From positions 6,220 to 54,012 of the forward strand of contig PMLC01000037.1 of NCBI GenBank assembly GCA_003158745.1: DNA of 47,793 nucleotides, read 5' to 3'. The DNA comes from Acidobacteriota bacterium. Its GTDB lineage: Bacteria > Acidobacteriota > Thermoanaerobaculia > Thermoanaerobaculales > Thermoanaerobaculaceae. Both the position numbers and the translations under genes were made by a program. Of this stretch, positions 3,345 to 32,060 are shown piece after piece. The notes beneath the pieces were generated by a model. That model was not told where the DNA came from, searched no databases, and was given only the letters and a program-made list of their open reading frames with translations. The first letter of the stretch is position 1; every line of letters starts with the position of its first letter.

Positions 3345-4268
3345 AAGCGCCATGCGTTCTCCTGGACCGACCGGGCGAGAGGATCGGCCACGAAGTTCCC
3401 AGCAAGGTCGACCGGGTGTTCCGCATCGAGCATGGTGAGGCCCGATGCGTCTTTGACGAGAAGGGGAACGTTCTGGCGCATGAAAGCGACGAGATAGGTA
3501 GGGAAGAACTGCCCGGCCGCTTTATCGGCGCCCCTGGCGTGTCTGCACGAGCGCCGGCTTGTCGGCACGTGGCAGGGCCGACGCAACGTTGTCTCGGAAC
3601 GGGGCCTGCCATGATGTGGACGAACATGAGGTGGGCCAGGATAGGGGTGCTGGGAGCGAAGCGGGCGCTGGCGGGCGCTGCCACCATCAGGTAGCCGTGG
3701 CAGGAGTTTGACTAAGCCATAACCGCGATCCTGCGGCCCGAGCAAATGAAGGGGGTACAGCTCGCCACGGACGAAGATGCGAGCACGAGCCCCGGATGCG
3801 GTCGAGGAGCCGCAGCGGGCAGCCGGATCTCCGTGCGGTCGCGCCGTGATCGACAATCCTCGCCATCGCGTGACCATGTCGCCATTACCTCATGCGTGAT
3901 GTCAGGGTCCACCACCGGCTGCCGACCTTGCGGTCGAGGCGGGCGTTCGAACCCGGGTTGCACCGCGTTCGTCGGCAGCACCGGTGAGCCTGTCATTTTG
4001 AAGCTCATCAGACCCTGTCAGAAACCGCAAACCGCGATGAACGGTTTTCGCCGCGCATCCTCGTACCCGCGTGACTCGGTGGATGTCAGGCTTGGTTGCG
4101 GGGGCTCGCAACTTCGGTACATACAGCCTCGATCGAGGCTTGACCATACCTGAGGTCAACCCGTTAGCGCCCCGGAGCACCAAGCGCTCTGCCGATGGTG
4201 GGACGAGCTGCTCCGTCGCATCGACGCGGTGAATCTCCTGGCCTGATCTCGCTGCGGCGAGACGCTAC
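3345..4268. other. Gene-poor interval, no gene supported
   Basis: 924 nt after macB. Several overlapping reading frames exist on both strands, but none shows a start with a ribosome site plus a recognisable fold. The longest minus-strand frame (3341-3877) ends in plausible protein-like text (FFPTYLVAFMRQNVPLL) but is Arg/Pro/His-rich elsewhere, as shadow frames are. The base composition looks less G+C-rich than the flanks. A short hairpin, GTTGCG/CGCAAC, lies at 4095-4112. It may be decayed coding DNA or an old insertion; I cannot identify it. Confidence 0.4.
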
Positions 4269-4361
4269 TCAGTCCCCTCTGCCCCGCCAGTAGTAGGTGC
4301 CACCGCCGCCAAACAGAAGGACCAATACGACGATCACGATGATCAGTGTGGTAGTGCTCAT
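4269..4361 (-). CDS. 30-residue single-TM peptide (DUF3309-like)
   Basis: A very small minus-strand gene with ATG at 4361-4359 and TGA at 4271-4269. The product starts MSTTTLIIVIVVLVLLFGGG and ends GTYYWRGRGD: a single hydrophobic helix, a glycine run and a short aromatic/basic tail. This layout matches the small hydrophobic DUF3309-type peptides widespread in soil proteobacteria; the family match is from memory. A purine-rich site (GGTAGGGAAAG) lies just upstream of the ATG. Support for the gene also comes from its leader: the same ~95-nt block, ending at a start codon, precedes the divergent gene at 4796. The function of such peptides is unknown; membrane association is inferred from hydrophobicity. 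Confidence 0.7.
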   Translation of the reverse strand: MSTTTLIIVIVVLVLLFGGGGTYYWRGRGD

Positions 4362-4470
4362 GATCTTTCCCTACCTTTCGAAATCTCCTCGAGGTTAGTC
4401 CTCCGGAACCCCATCCGAGAAGCGCACTTTCTACCCGGGAGCGAAACCGCGAGCTAGGTAGGAACTACCC
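4362..4470 (-). promoter_or_regulatory. Twin leader element, copy 1 (upstream of the 30-residue peptide)
   Basis: Read on the minus strand, this region contains GTAGTTCCTACCT, then GTAGAAAGTGC about 21 nt further on, then a TGGGG...GGAGGACTA block and a purine-rich ribosome site before the ATG. The same words in the same order and at nearly the same distance (95 versus 94 nt from the first block to the ATG) occur at 4690-4795 on the plus strand. Shared promoter or RNA leader is the simplest reading; no standard -35/-10 pair was identified with confidence. Confidence 0.6.
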
Positions 4471-4688
4471 GATCGGCACTAAATGTCGGGCGCGTGTCCT
4501 TGCCCGAACGATGGTCCGGAGCAATGCATCGGAGGCCTTGTTTGGCCTTGGGTTGCTGGGTTGCTCAAGTTCGCAGAGCCTTTCATGGTCACAGTCGGTG
4601 GGCATCCGTTCCCGGTCCTGTGGGCGATCATCGGCGCCGCCGGACCGCAACCGGCCAAGGGCCGGCGATGGAGGATGGCCACCGGCCG

Positions 4689-4795
4689 CGTAGTTCCTAC
4701 CTGGCTTGCGCCTTCGCTTCTCGGTAGAAAGTGCTCTTCCTGTGGGGGCGGCCGAGGACTAGAGTCGTAAAGTGTTCTGGGAAGGACGGTATGCC
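4689..4795 (+). promoter_or_regulatory. Twin leader element, copy 2 (upstream of the 4796 gene)
   Basis: The plus-strand counterpart of the leader at 4362-4470. The identical 13-mer GTAGTTCCTACCT is at 4690-4702, GTAGAAAGTGC follows about 21 nt later, and GAGGACTA is at 4753-4760. A GGAAGGA site (4780-4786) sits about 9 nt before the ATG at 4796. The two leaders point away from each other and together form an imperfect inverted repeat of about 50 nt or more with about 220 nt between the inner edges. Confidence 0.6.
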
Positions 4796-5437
4796 ATGAA
4801 ACGCAATCGACACGGGCCTACGGTGACCGATGGTCTGATGTTCGGGCACGAAGAAGTCGCCGTCATGGACCTTTTCACCCCGCGCAGCGCGCTTTCGGGA
4901 ACGCCACTCGTTTTCCAATCGGCCAAGCTCCTCGATCACGTACAAGACGCAATAGACTTCGTGATCCCCTGGCAACCGGTCTTTCGGCGACAATGGAAGC
5001 GGTCAGCTTCTCTGCGGGTTCCACATCCGGAACATTTTCATGCGCGCGTTCTACCTCCGGTCCTCGAAGAGAACAACCTTCAAGCTGGGTGCGACAGGGT
5101 CCTCGCGGACGGAACTTGGAACTCCACGCTGCTGCTTCCCAGGGCGGAAGGCAACCGGAGTGGGTGGCAATGGCTCCATCGACTCGTCACCCTATCGGGG
5201 CTGGGCTGGGCGTTCGTTCTCGCGGCGGTCCTTTGGGAGCTTTTCGCCCTCGCATTTTCCAAATGTGCCGGCTGGGGATGGGACAAGGGAGCGTTCTTTT
5301 TCGCTTGGGGTCTTGGGATCCTCGCCTTGGGTTTCTATCTGAGAACGAGTACGAAACGGCCTGCATGCTCCCGGTTCTTCCTCGGCGTCAACGCCATCAT
5401 GCTGACCGTGCTCTCTCTAGTCGTCGCCACGAGATAG
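4796..5437 (+). CDS. Predicted membrane protein of unknown family
   Basis: 213 residues from the ATG at 4796 (MKRNRHGPTVTDG). The start is chosen because it has a GGAAGGA site and lies at the same distance from the shared leader as the ATG of the divergent small peptide. The first ~125 residues are soluble and unrecognised. The last ~85 contain three hydrophobic stretches (LSGLGWAFVLAAVLWELFAL, FFFAWGLGILALGFYL and GVNAIMLTVLSLVV), suggesting a membrane-anchored C-terminus. Codon third positions in the C-terminal half are G/C-rich and look coding. I do not recognise the family; a frameshift joining two frames in the N-terminal half cannot be excluded. The leader sharing suggests the same control as the 30-residue peptide. 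Confidence 0.45.
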   Translation: MKRNRHGPTVTDGLMFGHEEVAVMDLFTPRSALSGTPLVFQSAKLLDHVQDAIDFVIPWQPVFRRQWKRSASLRVPHPEHFHARVLPPVLEENNLQAGCDRVLADGTWNSTLLLPRAEGNRSGWQWLHRLVTLSGLGWAFVLAAVLWELFALAFSKCAGWGWDKGAFFFAWGLGILALGFYLRTSTKRPACSRFFLGVNAIMLTVLSLVVATR

Positions 5438-5514: not shown

Positions 5515-6153
5515 CTACAGCAGGTTGTTTTCCTCGGCGTAGTTCACCAACTCGACTCGGCTGACCAATCCGAGCTTGCCCATCAGGTTGGCACGGTGGT
5601 TCTCGACGGTGCGCATCGAGAGGCCGAGCAGGCCGGCGATCTGCCGGTTGGTGTTTCCCTTGGCGAGGAGGCGCAAGACGTCGAGCTCGCGGCGGGTCAG
5701 CACGACCGCCTGCAAGCCGCGCCGGTGCTCCGTCGTGACGGGCTGGTGAAGGAGCGCGCGGGTCATCGCGGGGTGCACGTAGATGTCGCCGTGACTCACC
5801 GCATGGATCGCCTGGATGATCTCGGACTCGTCGGCCCGCTTGATCACGTATCCGGCGCCGCCCGCGCGTAGAGCTTCGTGCAGCAGGCTTTCGTCCTCGT
5901 GCATGGTGAGGAACAGCACGATGAGCTCCGGATGCTTTTCCTTCAGCTGCTTTGCAGTCTTGATGCCGTTCTCGGGGGGCATGGTGATGTCGAGCAGGAC
6001 CATGTCTGGGTGCAGCATCTCGACGAGGCGCAGCGTCTCCATACCATCTTTCGCTTCGTCGACAACCTCGAGATCGGGGTCGGCTCGGAGCAATGCCCGG
6101 AGGCCCGAACGGACGACGGCGTGGTCGTCAGCGATCAGGATGCGGATCGGCAC
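5515..6153 (-). CDS. NarL/FixJ-family response regulator
   Basis: 212 residues. The receiver domain (1-120) has the acidic pair in IADDH, the phosphoacceptor Asp55 in MVLLDITMP, and the Lys in YVIKRADESE. A linker is followed by a LuxR-type helix-turn-helix (about 145-210: LTRRELDVLRLLAKGNTNRQIAGLLGLSMRTVENHRANLMGKLG). It is a DNA-binding transcription factor switched by phosphorylation. Its start lies 26 nt inside the end of the upstream kinase gene, so the two are translationally coupled, and the kinase is the obvious partner. Targets are not evident from the sequence. Confidence 0.96.
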   Translation of the reverse strand: MPIRILIADDHAVVRSGLRALLRADPDLEVVDEAKDGMETLRLVEMLHPDMVLLDITMPPENGIKTAKQLKEKHPELIVLFLTMHEDESLLHEALRAGGAGYVIKRADESEIIQAIHAVSHGDIYVHPAMTRALLHQPVTTEHRRGLQAVVLTRRELDVLRLLAKGNTNRQIAGLLGLSMRTVENHRANLMGKLGLVSRVELVNYAEENNLL

Positions 6154-8281
6154 TTGGCACCTCCACCACGACGGTGGTACCTGCCCCAGGCGCGCTTTCC
6201 AGCGTCAGGGTCCCGCCCAGCGCCTCGGCTCGCTCCCTCAGCCCGAGGAGACCCAAGTGCTCCCCGCGCTGGACCTGGTGCGGTTCGAACCCGACGCCGT
6301 CGTCCTCGACCATCACAAGGACCCGGTCGCCGCGACGCTCCGCCATCACGTCGACCCGGGTCGCTCGGGCGTGGCGCACGACGTTGGTCATCGCCTCCTG
6401 GACCACGCGGTAGAGAGCCGTCTCCACCGCCATCGGGAGACGTTCGCTCGTGAACCCGCGCGCCTTGAAACGGACCGCGAGGCCAAACTTGGACCCGGCC
6501 GACCGCGAGTACTCTCTGAGGGCCGCCTCGAGCCCCAGGGGATCAAGGCTCGGCGGTCGCAGGTCCGCGGCCAGACGGTGCAGGCCGTCGATGACGGCAT
6601 CGGTCCTCTGCATGAGCTCCGCCACCCGTCCGGCAGCATTCCCGCCCTCGTCGATCTCCCTCTCCAGCAGGCGGAGTCCGAAGCGCAGCGACGCCAGGGA
6701 TTGACCCGCCTCGTCGTGAAGCTCTCGGGCAATGTGGCGCCGCTCGCTTTCCTGCGCCTCGACGAGGCGGTGTGAAAGCGACCGCATCCGCACCGCCGAT
6801 GCCTGCATCTGCTCGAAGAGAACCGCGTTCTCGACGGCTACCGAGGCCTGGGACGACATCGCCTCGGCCAGCCTCACGTGATCTTCGTTGAAGTAGCCGG
6901 CCTCGCGCTTGGACAGGGAGAACAACCCGGCCACCTCGCCACGCGCGAACAGCGGGACCCCCATCCAACTCGCCTCGGACGAACCATCCGTTGGGAGGCT
7001 CCAGTCGGGGTGGGCGCGGACGTCGGAAATCAGAACCGCTGTGCCGGTCTTCAGGATACCGTGGACGATCGGGTGGTCGGTCGCCTTGAACTCCGGTCGA
7101 TCCTCGGGCGGGAGGGGAACCACGCGGTTGCCGTCGAAGATGGCCCGGACGGAGACCCGCGACGCCTCCTCGACGAGCATGACGCGGGCACGGTCGAAGG
7201 GGACCAGCCGTCGCAGGCGGTCGAGCAAGGTCGCCAGCACGGTTTCGCGGTTCAGGCTGCGCGTGAGCACCAGGGTCGCCTCGCGTAGGGCGTCGGCGAC
7301 GTGCCGGGCGCGCTGCTCGGCCTCGTACGCGAGCCATCTGTCGGTCACGTCCCGGGCAACGGTCAGCACCGACGGGATGGCGTCCCCCAACCCGGTCTCG
7401 GGAACGAGCCGGCAGTCGAAGTGCCGCGTCCCATCTCGGGCCGGAAAAGCGAACTCGATTCTCTCGGGCCGTCCGGTTGCGAAGACCCTCCGCAGGGCTA
7501 CGTCCCACATCTCGATCAGCTCGGCCGACATCCCCACTTCCTTGTTCGTCTTGCCCACGTAGTCCTGCGATGGGCGGCCGCTTACGCTCTGGATCGAAGG
7601 GCTGACGTAGAGGTGGCGCAGATTCGGGTCAAAGCGCGCGATGACGTCGGGCAGGTTCTCGACCAGCGTCCTGAATTTCTCCTCCGCCTGATGCAGTTGC
7701 GTGGCGCCCTCACGCACCTTCCTCTCGAGGCCATTCCGGTTCTTCTCGAACCCGTTGACGGTGCGGCTATTGAGCATCGCCACGGCAGCCATCTCGGCAA
7801 AGACCTCGACGAGCCGGGAGGCGGTCGCGGAGAAGCCCCCGGGCTTGTTGATCAGGCCGACCAGCCCAGCGACGTCGCCGGCGATGATGATCGGTGCGAC
7901 GAGCACGCTCTCCAGGGCTGCGTGATCGTCAGCAGCCGACGCCTGCGCCGCGCCCTTTGTCAGATCGTTGGCGATGACGACCCGGCCAACCTTGGAGGCG
8001 CGGGCGCAGATGCGGCGAAGCGGGGCGGGCAGGCCGCCAGCGGAGGGGAGGCCGAGGCTGCCGGGATCGAGGCAGATGACCTCGATGCCCTTCCCGCCCG
8101 GTGAGCTCACGGCGACGAAACCGGTGTCCGCGCCAAGGATCGCTTTGCACGCCCCCAAGACCGCTCTCGCCGCGTCGGTGAAGGCGCGGTTCTCGAGCAC
8201 CGCGCGGGCGGCCGCCAGCAGCGCGGCAACTTCGCGGCTGCGGCCGTTCGTCTTTCCTTGCGGTTCCGGCGACTTCGTCAT
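6128..8281 (-). CDS. Soluble GAF-PAS-GAF sensor histidine kinase (HisKA_3 type)
   Basis: 717 residues from the ATG at 8281, which has AGGAAGG just upstream; an upstream in-frame start at 8329 lacks this. No TM helix is present. Order: GAF-like domain (about 20-170), short coiled linker, PAS (about 195-325, FRTLVENLPDVIARFDPN through VLTVARDVTDR), second GAF (about 340-490), HisKA_3 dimerisation helix with phospho-His near residue 522 (RRHIARELHDEAGQ), and a HATPase_c domain (N-box QEAMTNVVRHA, G-box EDDGVGF, GLLGLRERAEALGG). This layout is typical of NarX/DegS-like cytoplasmic kinases that sense small ligands or redox through GAF domains. It forms an operon with the NarL-type regulator, and the genes overlap. 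Confidence 0.95.
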   Translation of the reverse strand: MTKSPEPQGKTNGRSREVAALLAAARAVLENRAFTDAARAVLGACKAILGADTGFVAVSSPGGKGIEVICLDPGSLGLPSAGGLPAPLRRICARASKVGRVVIANDLTKGAAQASAADDHAALESVLVAPIIIAGDVAGLVGLINKPGGFSATASRLVEVFAEMAAVAMLNSRTVNGFEKNRNGLERKVREGATQLHQAEEKFRTLVENLPDVIARFDPNLRHLYVSPSIQSVSGRPSQDYVGKTNKEVGMSAELIEMWDVALRRVFATGRPERIEFAFPARDGTRHFDCRLVPETGLGDAIPSVLTVARDVTDRWLAYEAEQRARHVADALREATLVLTRSLNRETVLATLLDRLRRLVPFDRARVMLVEEASRVSVRAIFDGNRVVPLPPEDRPEFKATDHPIVHGILKTGTAVLISDVRAHPDWSLPTDGSSEASWMGVPLFARGEVAGLFSLSKREAGYFNEDHVRLAEAMSSQASVAVENAVLFEQMQASAVRMRSLSHRLVEAQESERRHIARELHDEAGQSLASLRFGLRLLEREIDEGGNAAGRVAELMQRTDAVIDGLHRLAADLRPPSLDPLGLEAALREYSRSAGSKFGLAVRFKARGFTSERLPMAVETALYRVVQEAMTNVVRHARATRVDVMAERRGDRVLVMVEDDGVGFEPHQVQRGEHLGLLGLRERAEALGGTLTLESAPGAGTTVVVEVPSADPHPDR

Positions 8282-8670
8282 CGGACCTTCCTCGCGCTGC
8301 GACGGACAGCGCGGACACCTCCGAACCATCCCACGGTCGCCTCAGGAGAGTGGAGGAGCGCGGCCCGGAGGCGGATGCTCTGAGACAAACATACCACCAA
8401 CCGACGCGACTGGTGCAGGAGCCGAAGCCAAGCGTGAGCCCCAGCTCCGGCGCCATAGCGGCGGCGGGGTGGCCGGGAGGTTCTTCGATTGCGGGCCCCC
8501 GGTCATCGTGTGGGCGGGCGGCTGGTCTGTTTGGGGATCGGTACGAGCGAAAAGGGTCGGCGCCGTGCCCGGTGTCGCTGAGCAAGGCGCCGGCGGCGCA
8601 AGGTAGTTCAGTTCGGGCTGCGCATGAGGGTTCGACGCTCGCGCGGCGATCCCTGACGCGCAGATCCGGG
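8282..8670. other. Intergenic stretch, no gene seen
   Basis: 389 nt between the kinase start and the end of the Spy-like gene, both on the minus strand. It should hold the promoter of the kinase/regulator pair and the terminator of the sigma-factor operon, but I find neither a convincing -35/-10 pair nor a strong hairpin with a T-run. The reading frames crossing it are antisense shadows. Confidence 0.5.
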
Positions 8671-11216: not shown

Positions 11217-12305
11217 TCAGCGCAGCAGGAGAAACGAGGCCACCAGCGGTACGAGGAGCACGGCGACCATGATGACCCAGGACCAGAGGTTGGCGAAATT
11301 GAGCGTGTAACCGAGGCCGAAACGCTTCTCAAGGAAGATCGCCGGGTCGGCGGGGTTGAAGTAGAACACCCCCGCCTTCCAGCACGAGTCGGGTGTGCGG
11401 TCGCCCGCCGGTGCGGAGCCGCCCGCAAACGTCTCGGGAGAAGTGCCGGAGCTCGCACGGCGAGCGCGAACGAGCCCGACGACCGCGAGTACGACGACTG
11501 CGAGACCAAGCAACGGGCCGCCGATGATGACCCAGCCGGGGCTCCGCAACTCGGCCCTGAGCGGCATCAGCGCTCCCCATGCGAACGCGGCGGCGACCAC
11601 GTACTCCGACGCCAAGAGGACGATTGCGACGGCACGCCGATACCTCGCCTCGCCGGCAGCCAACGGTGGCTGCAAACGCGTGCGGGGTATCAGCCGGAAC
11701 GCGGCGTAGGCCATGACACCGACCGCGCAGCAGACCAGGACACCGACCGCGAGAGGGCCGAATACGGCCTGCGGGGAGCGCATCACCCACCGGTCGGGCT
11801 GGAACTCGATGTTCCAGTGCACCGGAAAGCGCTCGGGTATCGCGGACCAGCGCGCTGCGAGGACCGCGGCCGCTCCGCCGAGCAGAGCGAACGGTCCGAA
11901 CTGGGCCGGCAAGCCGCCAGGAAAGCGGTCCGTGCGCGGGGCAAGTTCGGCGGAGCGCAGCGTGGTCGTGGGCACGGCGTGGGGGAGCGTCCGCCGGCGC
12001 GCCCCCAGGAACGCTGCAAAGCCACCGCCGATCTGGTACAGCACGCCGACCGGGAAGAGCGCCGGGCGCTGGGACCGCAATGCGGCGACGGCGATCGCGA
12101 GGGCGGCCGCGGTGTGGATCCAGAGCCAGATCCGGTAGCGCTGCACGATCCGCCGGCCAGTTTCGGTCGTCCGGAAGGTCGGGTCGACCGTCACCGAGAA
12201 GACGATGTCCGATCGCGTCCAGGTCGGCATGAAGTGGAGAAGCAGGGCGATGACCGTCAGATCGCCTGCGAGGAACAGCAGCGGGGCGAGAAGGCTCGCG
12301 TTCAT
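11217..12305 (-). CDS. DUF1648/DUF5808 multi-TM membrane protein
   Basis: 362 residues from the ATG at 12305 (MNASLLAPLL), chosen because it begins directly with the first TM helix; an in-frame start at 12338 is possible. About eight TM helices are visible. The DUF1648 signature IPERFPVHWNIEFQPDRW is in the middle and the DUF5808 signature CWKAGVFYFNPADPAIFLEKRFGLGYTLNF near the C-terminus, followed by the last TM. Such proteins are commonly encoded next to a YtrA-like GntR repressor, exactly as here (GntR gene at 12412-12816, same strand, upstream, 106-nt gap). By analogy with SdpI relatives it may confer immunity or respond to envelope-active compounds, but this is inference. Confidence 0.9.
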   Translation of the reverse strand: MNASLLAPLLFLAGDLTVIALLLHFMPTWTRSDIVFSVTVDPTFRTTETGRRIVQRYRIWLWIHTAAALAIAVAALRSQRPALFPVGVLYQIGGGFAAFLGARRRTLPHAVPTTTLRSAELAPRTDRFPGGLPAQFGPFALLGGAAAVLAARWSAIPERFPVHWNIEFQPDRWVMRSPQAVFGPLAVGVLVCCAVGVMAYAAFRLIPRTRLQPPLAAGEARYRRAVAIVLLASEYVVAAAFAWGALMPLRAELRSPGWVIIGGPLLGLAVVVLAVVGLVRARRASSGTSPETFAGGSAPAGDRTPDSCWKAGVFYFNPADPAIFLEKRFGLGYTLNFANLWSWVIMVAVLLVPLVASFLLLR

Positions 12306-30428: not shown

Positions 30429-30757
30429 CGCCGCCTCCCGAGCGCCCGCCGGCGTTCGTTTCGTCGGGCTTGACACCGCTGCCTCTATAGCTTCAATCTT
30501 ACATCTTTCCGGGTCGCCTGCCGCGTCGGGCGCTCCAGCGCCGCCGGTTGGAAGTGCGCGAGGGGGCGCGTCCATCGGATGCAGCGAATCCCGGGCGCAG
30601 CGCAGGCGGCTAAGGCGGGGACGGCAGAAGTCCTTGAGCCCATTTCGAGAAGCGTTCCTTCTTGGTAGACTGAGAACAGCGTGGCTTCGCGAATTCGTTC
30701 GCTTGCTGCGAATCGTCGGTGGTCGCCCGCTCTTTGGAGGGCGGCAGAGGCGCGAGT
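30429..30757. other. Divergent intergenic region
   Basis: 329 nt between two divergent genes. An A+T-richer patch at 30466-30510 contains TTGACA on the plus strand (30470-30475) with a weak -10 candidate (TCAATC, 17 nt on) and TATAGA on the minus strand (30489-30484). These could be divergent promoters; neither is convincing alone. No gene is seen. Confidence 0.35.
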
Positions 30758-31423
30758 ATGAGGCAGATACCGGACCCGGAACTTGGCGAGACGATCCCCG
30801 ACCTCCTGCACCGGTTCCGCAACCCGCTCGCAGCCCTCAAGTCAGGCATTTCTCTGGTGATGCACGTCGCAAAGCCGACCGGTGAGACGCTCGATCTCCT
30901 GAACCAGATGCTCAACGAGATCGGGAGGCTGGACCTTGCCACACGGGAGACGCAGCGGTACTTCTGTATGACCGCCGGCCGGCCGCGGCCGGTCCGTGTG
31001 ACCCAAGTCGCGAGCGAGGCGCGAGAGGCGGTCCAGGACGAGGCGGCTAGGGCGGGCGTGGAGGTCGTGCTCGAAGGCGGCGGGGAAGAGAGCGCTCTGG
31101 TCGACCACGAGCAGCTCTGCTTCTCGCTCGCCGAACTGCTCGCGAACGCCTGCCGGGAGTCTGCGCCGGGCAGCCGGGTGCGCGTGATGTGGCACCGGGG
31201 CACGAAGGGCCTCGAGGTCATCGATGTCGTGGATTCCGGCAGGGGAATACCGGCAGCCCACGCCGGCGAGATTGGGAAACCCTACTTCACGACATCGCCC
31301 GGGCGGACCGGTCTCGGCCTCGCGACGGTCGCGAAAATTTGCCGGTTGGCCGGAGGGAGCTTATCGTGGGACAACCTCGGCGATCGAGGTTGCCGGTTCA
31401 CCGCGGAGCTGCCGATCGGATGA
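30758..31423 (+). CDS. Minimal histidine kinase without sensor domain
   Basis: 221 residues from the ATG at 30758 (MRQIPDPELG). The phosphorylation helix starts almost at once: LLHRFRNPLAALKSGISL, with His18 in the HxxRNPL form. The HATPase_c domain has the N-box LAELLANACRES, G1 VVDSGRGIP and G2 TGLGLATVAKICRLAGG. No TM helix, PAS or GAF is present, so input must come from elsewhere or by protein contact. It is followed 4 nt later by a NarL-type regulator, its likely partner. A HisKA-type kinase feeding a NarL-type regulator is unusual, since NarL regulators mostly pair with HisKA_3 kinases. Confidence 0.93.
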   Translation: MRQIPDPELGETIPDLLHRFRNPLAALKSGISLVMHVAKPTGETLDLLNQMLNEIGRLDLATRETQRYFCMTAGRPRPVRVTQVASEAREAVQDEAARAGVEVVLEGGGEESALVDHEQLCFSLAELLANACRESAPGSRVRVMWHRGTKGLEVIDVVDSGRGIPAAHAGEIGKPYFTTSPGRTGLGLATVAKICRLAGGSLSWDNLGDRGCRFTAELPIG

Positions 31424-31427
31424 CCAC

Positions 31428-32060
31428 ATGATCCGAGTCCTCGTCGCAGACGACCACGCCCTGGTGAGGGCGGGGTTGAAGCACATCCTCGGCAAGACCG
31501 GCGAGATCAGCGTGGTCGGCGAGGCCTGCAACGGCCAAGAGGTCATGGTCGAAGCACGGCGCACCCCGTGCGACGTGGTGCTACTGGACATCGGAATGCC
31601 CGGGCGCAGCGGCCTCGATGTACTGAAACAGCTGCGGGCCGAGCACCCGAGCCTATCGGTACTCATCCTGACGATGTACCCGGAAGAGCAGTATGCCGTG
31701 CGCGCTCTGCGGGCCGGGGCGGCAGGCTACCTGACGAAGGACAGCGGGCCCGAGGAACTCGTGAGCGCCGTTCGCAAGGTCGCGTCGGGAGGTCGCTACG
31801 TCACCATGCGCGCGGCGGAGAGCCTGGCGTTCGAAGTGCAGGGGCGGCTCCGGCAATCGCCCCACGAGGCGTTGTCCGACCGTGAGTTGCAGGTCCTCTG
31901 CATGATCGCGCGAGGAAGAACGGTGAACGAGATCGCGGGCGAGCTCACGTTGAGCCCAAAGACTGTGAGCACCTACCGGTCCCGCGTCCTCGCAAAGCTG
32001 AATTTGCGCAACAACAGCGAGATCGCCTACTACGCCGTCAAGGAGGAACTGGTCGATTGA
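31428..32060 (+). CDS. NarL/FixJ-family response regulator
   Basis: 210 residues from the ATG at 31428, 4 nt after the kinase stop. Receiver: acidic pair in VADDH, phospho-Asp54 in VVLLDIGMPG, Lys in YLTKDSGPEEL. C-terminal LuxR-type HTH: LSDRELQVLCMIARGRTVNEIAGELTLSPKTVSTYRSRVLAKL. It is a transcription factor coupled to the minimal kinase just upstream. The next gene, of unknown function, starts 179 nt downstream on the same strand and could be a target or operon member. Confidence 0.96.
   Translation: MIRVLVADDHALVRAGLKHILGKTGEISVVGEACNGQEVMVEARRTPCDVVLLDIGMPGRSGLDVLKQLRAEHPSLSVLILTMYPEEQYAVRALRAGAAGYLTKDSGPEELVSAVRKVASGGRYVTMRAAESLAFEVQGRLRQSPHEALSDRELQVLCMIARGRTVNEIAGELTLSPKTVSTYRSRVLAKLNLRNNSEIAYYAVKEELVD

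Follow-up and report, generated by a model that had tools for sequence, protein, structure and literature searches.

The closest described relative of the arrangement reported here is the ogt promoter of Escherichia coli under the control of NarX/NarL. There NarL is needed at −44.5 and −77.5, with the proximal site abutting the −35 element (PMC7419079). The dimer sites are 33 bp apart at that promoter, the NarL operator is a 7-2-7 palindrome, and NarX is a kinase of the membrane-bound type. The EcfG/RpoE-type stress regulons of Proteobacteria include BON and PRC-barrel proteins, small membrane peptides and surface proteins.

We have analysed a 47,793-nucleotide stretch of DNA (the window, C41:6220-54012) from the 3.7-Mb draft genome of an uncultured, soil-type Acidobacteriota bacterium of the class Thermoanaerobaculia. 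Two divergent genes, with ATG codons at 4361 (minus gene) and 4796 (plus gene), are each preceded by a copy of one module (Table 1). On both strands GTAGTTCCTACCT is followed after a gap of 21 nt by GTAGAAAGTGC; a GGACTA block and the ATG come next. The distance from the first word to the ATG is 107 nt (minus) or 106 nt (plus) start to start, and 94 or 93 nt when counted from where that word ends. Both words are thus confirmed at the positions given in an earlier note on this DNA, while its description of an almost identical leader of ~95 nt was overstated. The copies are 78% identical across 76 nt, from −3 to 72 relative to operator 1 (BLASTN E = 8e-10). Beyond this the identity drops to roughly chance (36% on the upstream side, 39% over the 28 nt that directly precede the ATG, and 20% where the coding sequence begins), so the shared unit is both shorter and less identical than claimed. 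The likeness of the two copies far exceeds what chance would give, since the host genome has the full pattern 16-19 times and its backward reading 0 times.

Table 1. Locations of the features discussed. Ranges lacking a contig identifier are window positions.
Feature	Location	Strand	Evidence or remark
30-residue DUF3309-like transmembrane peptide	4269..4361	-	Pfam PF11752 E 0.007, below cut-off
Predicted -10 TAACCT, minus module	4392..4397	-	Spacer 18; predicted +1 near 4385
Degenerate -35 TTCTCG, minus module	4416..4421	-	TT conserved across site set
Operator 2, minus module	4424..4434	-	GTAGAAAGTGC; centre about -44
Operator 1, minus module	4456..4468	-	GTAGTTCCTACCT; centre about -78 from predicted start; aligned with 61 other sites
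Operator 1, plus module	4690..4702	+	Sequence; 62-site alignment
Operator 2, plus module	4724..4734	+	Sequence; 62-site alignment
Degenerate -35 TTCCTG, plus module	4737..4742	+	Site alignment
Predicted -10 TAGAGT, plus module	4760..4765	+	Spacer 17; predicted +1 near 4772
213-residue membrane protein, family not recognised	4796..5437	+	No Pfam match
NarL/LuxR-type response regulator, proposed DNA-binding factor	5515..6153	-	Response_reg + GerE; best PDB match NarL
GAF-PAS-GAF histidine kinase (HisKA_3), operon partner of the regulator	6128..8329	-	Domain matches; pair conserved
Facing-palindrome module, own genome	C106:55109-55153 (L007:3110-3154)		Ice-binding-like gene
Facing-palindrome module, G004	C189:4252-4296		Ice-binding-like gene
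Facing-palindrome module, G008	C165:6876-6919		Ice-binding-like gene
Extra ECF sigma copy, G010	C91:47796-48461		
Extra ECF sigma copy, G008	C174:5768-6433		
Extra ECF sigma copy, own genome	C106:59356-60021		
Extra ECF sigma copy, fragment, G004	C64, near 11894-11980		
Diverged modules, G001	C84:3053, 4075, 4470		L087
Cassette copy, own genome	C106:39964	-	L006
Cassette copy, own genome	C106:70905	+	L014
Cassette copy, own genome	C106:14373	+	L013
Cassette copy, own genome	C137:82	+	L009
Cassette copy, own genome	C32:478	-	L016

Alignment of 62 sites defines a module of ~76 bp that comprises operator 1, operator 2, a degenerate −35, a spacer of 17-18 bp and a −10 of the form TAGnTT. Operator 1 has the consensus GTAGTTYCTACCT at offset 0-12. 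Operator 2, for which GTAGTAAGTGC and GTACAAAATGC occur as variants, begins exactly 34 nt after the start of operator 1, and this spacing is fixed in the 62 sites. The operator consensus is a palindrome of the GTAG-N3-CTAC type, imperfect in operator 2, and such palindromic operators recur at a fixed position upstream of several promoters. At the promoters of ice-binding (PF11999) genes in three genomes there are two nearly perfect facing palindromes, GTAGTTTCTACCT ... AGGTAGAAACTAC, and the full form of operator 2, GTAGAAACTAC, is therefore visible there. These facing-palindrome modules possibly act in both directions.

The promoter elements may be of the sigma-70 type. The −10 lies at offset 70, and TAnnnT is present at 69-71 in 53 of the 62 aligned sites; in the nonredundant strong sites the count is 34 of 37, and 0 at any control offset. 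The −35 region keeps only TT at offset 47-48 (T in 33/37 and 31/37 nonredundant sites), as at activator-dependent promoters. A GGAAAGGA-like Shine-Dalgarno sequence is found near offset 90-96, and an ATG at offset 106-108 in 31 of the 62 aligned sites. Taking the −10 as positions −12 to −7 places +1 at offset ~82 and the operators near −77 and −43. The earlier note recognised no standard promoter pair, and a strict scan for the sigma-70 consensus indeed finds none; yet a usable −10 had been overlooked in each window copy, missed by reader and scan because the −35 is degenerate. The predicted transcription starts lie ~24 nt before the ATG in both window genes, and most of the proposed leader is therefore upstream of the transcript.

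Module sites were located by pattern searches plus inspection of retrieved stretches. In the host genome there are 19 strand-wise matches with up to 3 mismatches, corresponding to about 16 places once mirror reads of near-palindromic sites are removed, and 0 matches to the reversed pattern. Most are on contigs other than that of the regulator described below. Many lie at a fixed distance from start codons, so the genome-wide search for the core words that had been proposed supports a regulon. Other members of the host family give 12 (G002), 19 (G004), 12 (G008) and 12 (G010) matches, with 3 weak ones in G001 and none in the remaining eleven genomes of the family; this amounts to 77 matches in six family genomes, against 1 match to the reversed-pattern control in 17. 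Across the class, matches with up to 2 mismatches are present in 13 of 149 genomes, with one control match. With a matrix trained on the host's own family, complete modules were detected close to the regulator in G114, G088, G097, G108 and G139, and over all loci scanned in other families it gives 21 matches against 0 in reversed sequence. The named contigs with the exact core are from Acidobacteriota, one of them from Thermoanaerobaculia, and the exact core was found nowhere else in a scan of 84,980 species.

The minus gene encodes a peptide that resembles DUF3309 (PF11752) over 22 residues, but is shorter and scores 16.9 bits against a curated cut-off of 22.3, so that it falls outside the family as defined. 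Similar peptides, 27-30 residues long across modules, follow the module in G004, G008, G010, G114, G088 and G139 with the ATG at offset 106-108. The small peptide looks like a core member of the module set because families f14, f16 and f17 all have it downstream of the module. A second DUF3309-like peptide (MTLILLIVVLVLLFGGGGGYYYSRRRRL) follows a module on another contig of the host genome (C105:2293, L012), and is itself followed by a YGGT-family protein. Between the window peptide gene and an ABC transporter gene, ~0.9 kb (3345-4268) contains no convincing gene. Relatives of the 213-residue protein occur in G001, G004, G008 and G010, in all four cases behind a module with offset 106.

Small membrane genes are only a part of the target set. 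The first genes after modules encode the DUF3309-like peptide, a BON lipoprotein, PRC-barrel, outer-membrane beta-barrel, ice-binding, WXXGXW, DUF3300, DUF6600, VOC, phosphoglucomutase, 6PGD-like and DUF883-like proteins, YGGT and PEMT membrane proteins, an ECF sigma factor in G010, and proteins without a Pfam family, the product of the plus gene among them; some of these downstream genes were called by a simple choice of ORF from third-position GC and ribosome-binding site. The module stays with orthologous genes in different genomes. In relatives the two genes of the window do not adjoin each other: they are separated by 32 kb or are on different contigs, and a separate module precedes each. 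The suggestion that both are under one control is supported in that each has a regulon module, but we reject the divergent pair as a special unit.

The plus gene adjoins a conserved kinase-regulator pair. The regulator has a receiver and a GerE domain with the phospho-acceptor set D9, D10, D55, T83 and K105, and the kinase has an ELHDE box and HisKA_3, as expected of a two-component system. For sensing, the kinase shows nothing clearly assignable apart from its GAF and PAS domains. In the host's own family, regulator orthologues of 86-88% identity are found only in the site-rich relatives G002, G004, G008 and G010. Among the 149 genomes of the class, the regulator (at least 65% identity) is present in 13 and sites in 13, with both in 10 (Fisher p = 7e-11); outside the host's own family the co-occurrence counts are 5, 2, 3 and 122 (p = 4e-6). 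The regulator is mostly 1-6 kb from modules (G000, G002, G004, G008, G010, G114, G088, G097, G108 and G139). Its kinase partner is conserved throughout, with an N-terminal end that is shorter or diverged in distant genomes. The recognition helix RTVENHRANLMGKL, with N, is found only in the ten closest regulators, all from module-bearing genomes. This N becomes S in G139, where the sites are weak, and G, S or D in relatives lacking good sites. The position aligns with V189 of NarL, a residue that contacts DNA bases. In G072, with a 66% regulator, no site was found near the regulator gene, and within the window no clear module belongs to the kinase-regulator operon itself. Window positions 30719-32060 encode a further, unlinked NarL-type regulator, which shares ~40% identity with the first, together with a short kinase-like protein.

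The observations, namely the motif and its rigid geometry, the genome-wide set of sites and the genes behind them, the co-occurrence, the linkage and the recognition-helix match, make it likely that each copy of the module is the promoter of its gene in a NarL-like two-component regulon, activated by dimers at tandem operators. The linked sensor-regulator pair probably throws the switch, turning on envelope and stress genes together. In the proposed mechanism, the kinase would phosphorylate the regulator, whose dimers would bind the two palindromic operators ~34 bp apart. The proximal dimer, abutting the degenerate −35, would help the housekeeping RNA polymerase to use the TAGnTT −10, and ~16 genes for envelope, surface and stress proteins would be switched on. 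We infer binding, phosphorylation, the sigma factor and activation rather than repression, the last because the −35 is poor and because of where operator 2 lies.

The layout matches that of NarL at ogt, and by this analogy the module most likely works as NarL does there, with phosphorylated dimers at two sites recruiting polymerase to a promoter with a poor −35. The regulator is also NarL-type, with NarL as its best solved-structure match, and the dimer sites have almost the same separation. It is not NarL itself because the operators are of the GTAG-N3-CTAC rather than the 7-2-7 type. Further differences are the GAF-PAS-GAF architecture of the kinase, in contrast to membrane-bound NarX, the envelope and stress proteins as targets, and an occurrence so far limited to some Thermoanaerobaculia. 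The gene content is comparable to that of the EcfG/RpoE regulons, but no EcfG-type promoter was seen, and a two-component regulator at tandem operators takes the place of an alternative sigma factor.

The operators might instead be bound by some other factor in the same promoter regulon, the linked kinase-regulator pair being a passenger or a target. The class is rich in LuxR-type regulators, a site is present with no close regulator found in the draft genomes G104, G125 and G127, and linkage alone could give co-occurrence. Set against this are the strength of the co-occurrence, physical linkage in ten genomes, the recognition-helix match and the separation of 33-34 bp, which suits a NarL-type regulator; we consider another factor improbable. 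An ECF sigma factor, with the blocks as its −35 and −10 elements, is a good deal less probable still. In G010, G008 and the host genome, an extra copy of such a factor (77-79% identical) is encoded next to the kinase or to a site, and the G010 copy has its own module. However, the ECF family is present in 135 of the 149 genomes against sites in 13, and neither G002 nor the distant genomes with sites have the extra copy, of which only a fragment is left in G004. The palindromic blocks lie at too great a distance from the −10 to serve as a −35, and the 17-18 bp spacer to the degenerate −35 is like that of housekeeping sigma. Its distribution does not follow that of the promoters, and we reject it as the trans-acting factor.

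The earlier note had left the choice between a duplicated promoter and an RNA leader. The promoter stands, with ~16 copies and a −10 at fixed distance, while a structured leader or riboswitch common to the genes is very unlikely. The rigid spacing to the start codon and conservation to about +280 in one subfamily would suit such a leader, but it is rejected, since the blocks come before the predicted start and the structure searches give no support for a fold. RNAalifold on the 37 nonredundant sites gave no fold in offsets 45-110 or 80-110, the transcribed part included, and over 0-110 only weak pairing between the two DNA operators (energy −0.8); an Rfam search at a permissive E-value gave no match. 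We share the note's opinion that the blocks are unlikely to be transposon ends. A dispersed MITE-like or other mobile repeat might have been suspected from the many copies and from a longer cassette, spanning −45 to +280, that is repeated in front of OMP, PRC-barrel and VOC genes. It is scarcely credible because distance and orientation to start codons are fixed across copies, which are thus not placed independently of genes; moreover, for unrelated genes the homology stops close to functional boundaries, at −3 and about 75, and orthologous genes retain the module.

The regulator and its modules have an uneven history. Judged by GlgX, the closest relative is G001 (88%), yet it has only a 65% regulator and three decayed modules, which look like operator decay or co-divergence with that regulator. 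G002, G004 and G008 (80-81% by GlgX), together with G010 of another genus, carry the 86-88% regulator. Patchy loss and transfer are both possible. The copies before OMP, PRC-barrel and VOC genes are homologous from −45 to about +280, covering the stretch coding for the OMP signal peptide, and this suggests that genes were recruited by copying of the OMP promoter cassette. A tentative extension, which we regard as possible but doubtful, is a portable stress regulon in which the pair and the module spread together, genes join by cassette copying, and operators decay after regulator loss, as in G001. If true, operators, promoter, 5' UTR and even a piece of the OMP signal-peptide gene would be copied ready-made.

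Our searches of the literature, mostly of open-access papers, found no description of the motif, of DUF3309 with a promoter, of Thermoanaerobaculia regulators or of BON/PRC stress promoters, and no described regulon for these uncultured Acidobacteriota. Two-component control at tandem operators is already known in kind; the operator, the regulator and the host group are new. This is a real, well-supported promoter regulon, and an uncultured group of Acidobacteriota now has a candidate regulator, an operator code and a set of target genes. Tiny membrane peptides, ice-binding-like proteins and several families with no assigned function are placed under one switch, and the presence, absence and operator decay seen across relatives make the birth and loss of a regulon directly testable.
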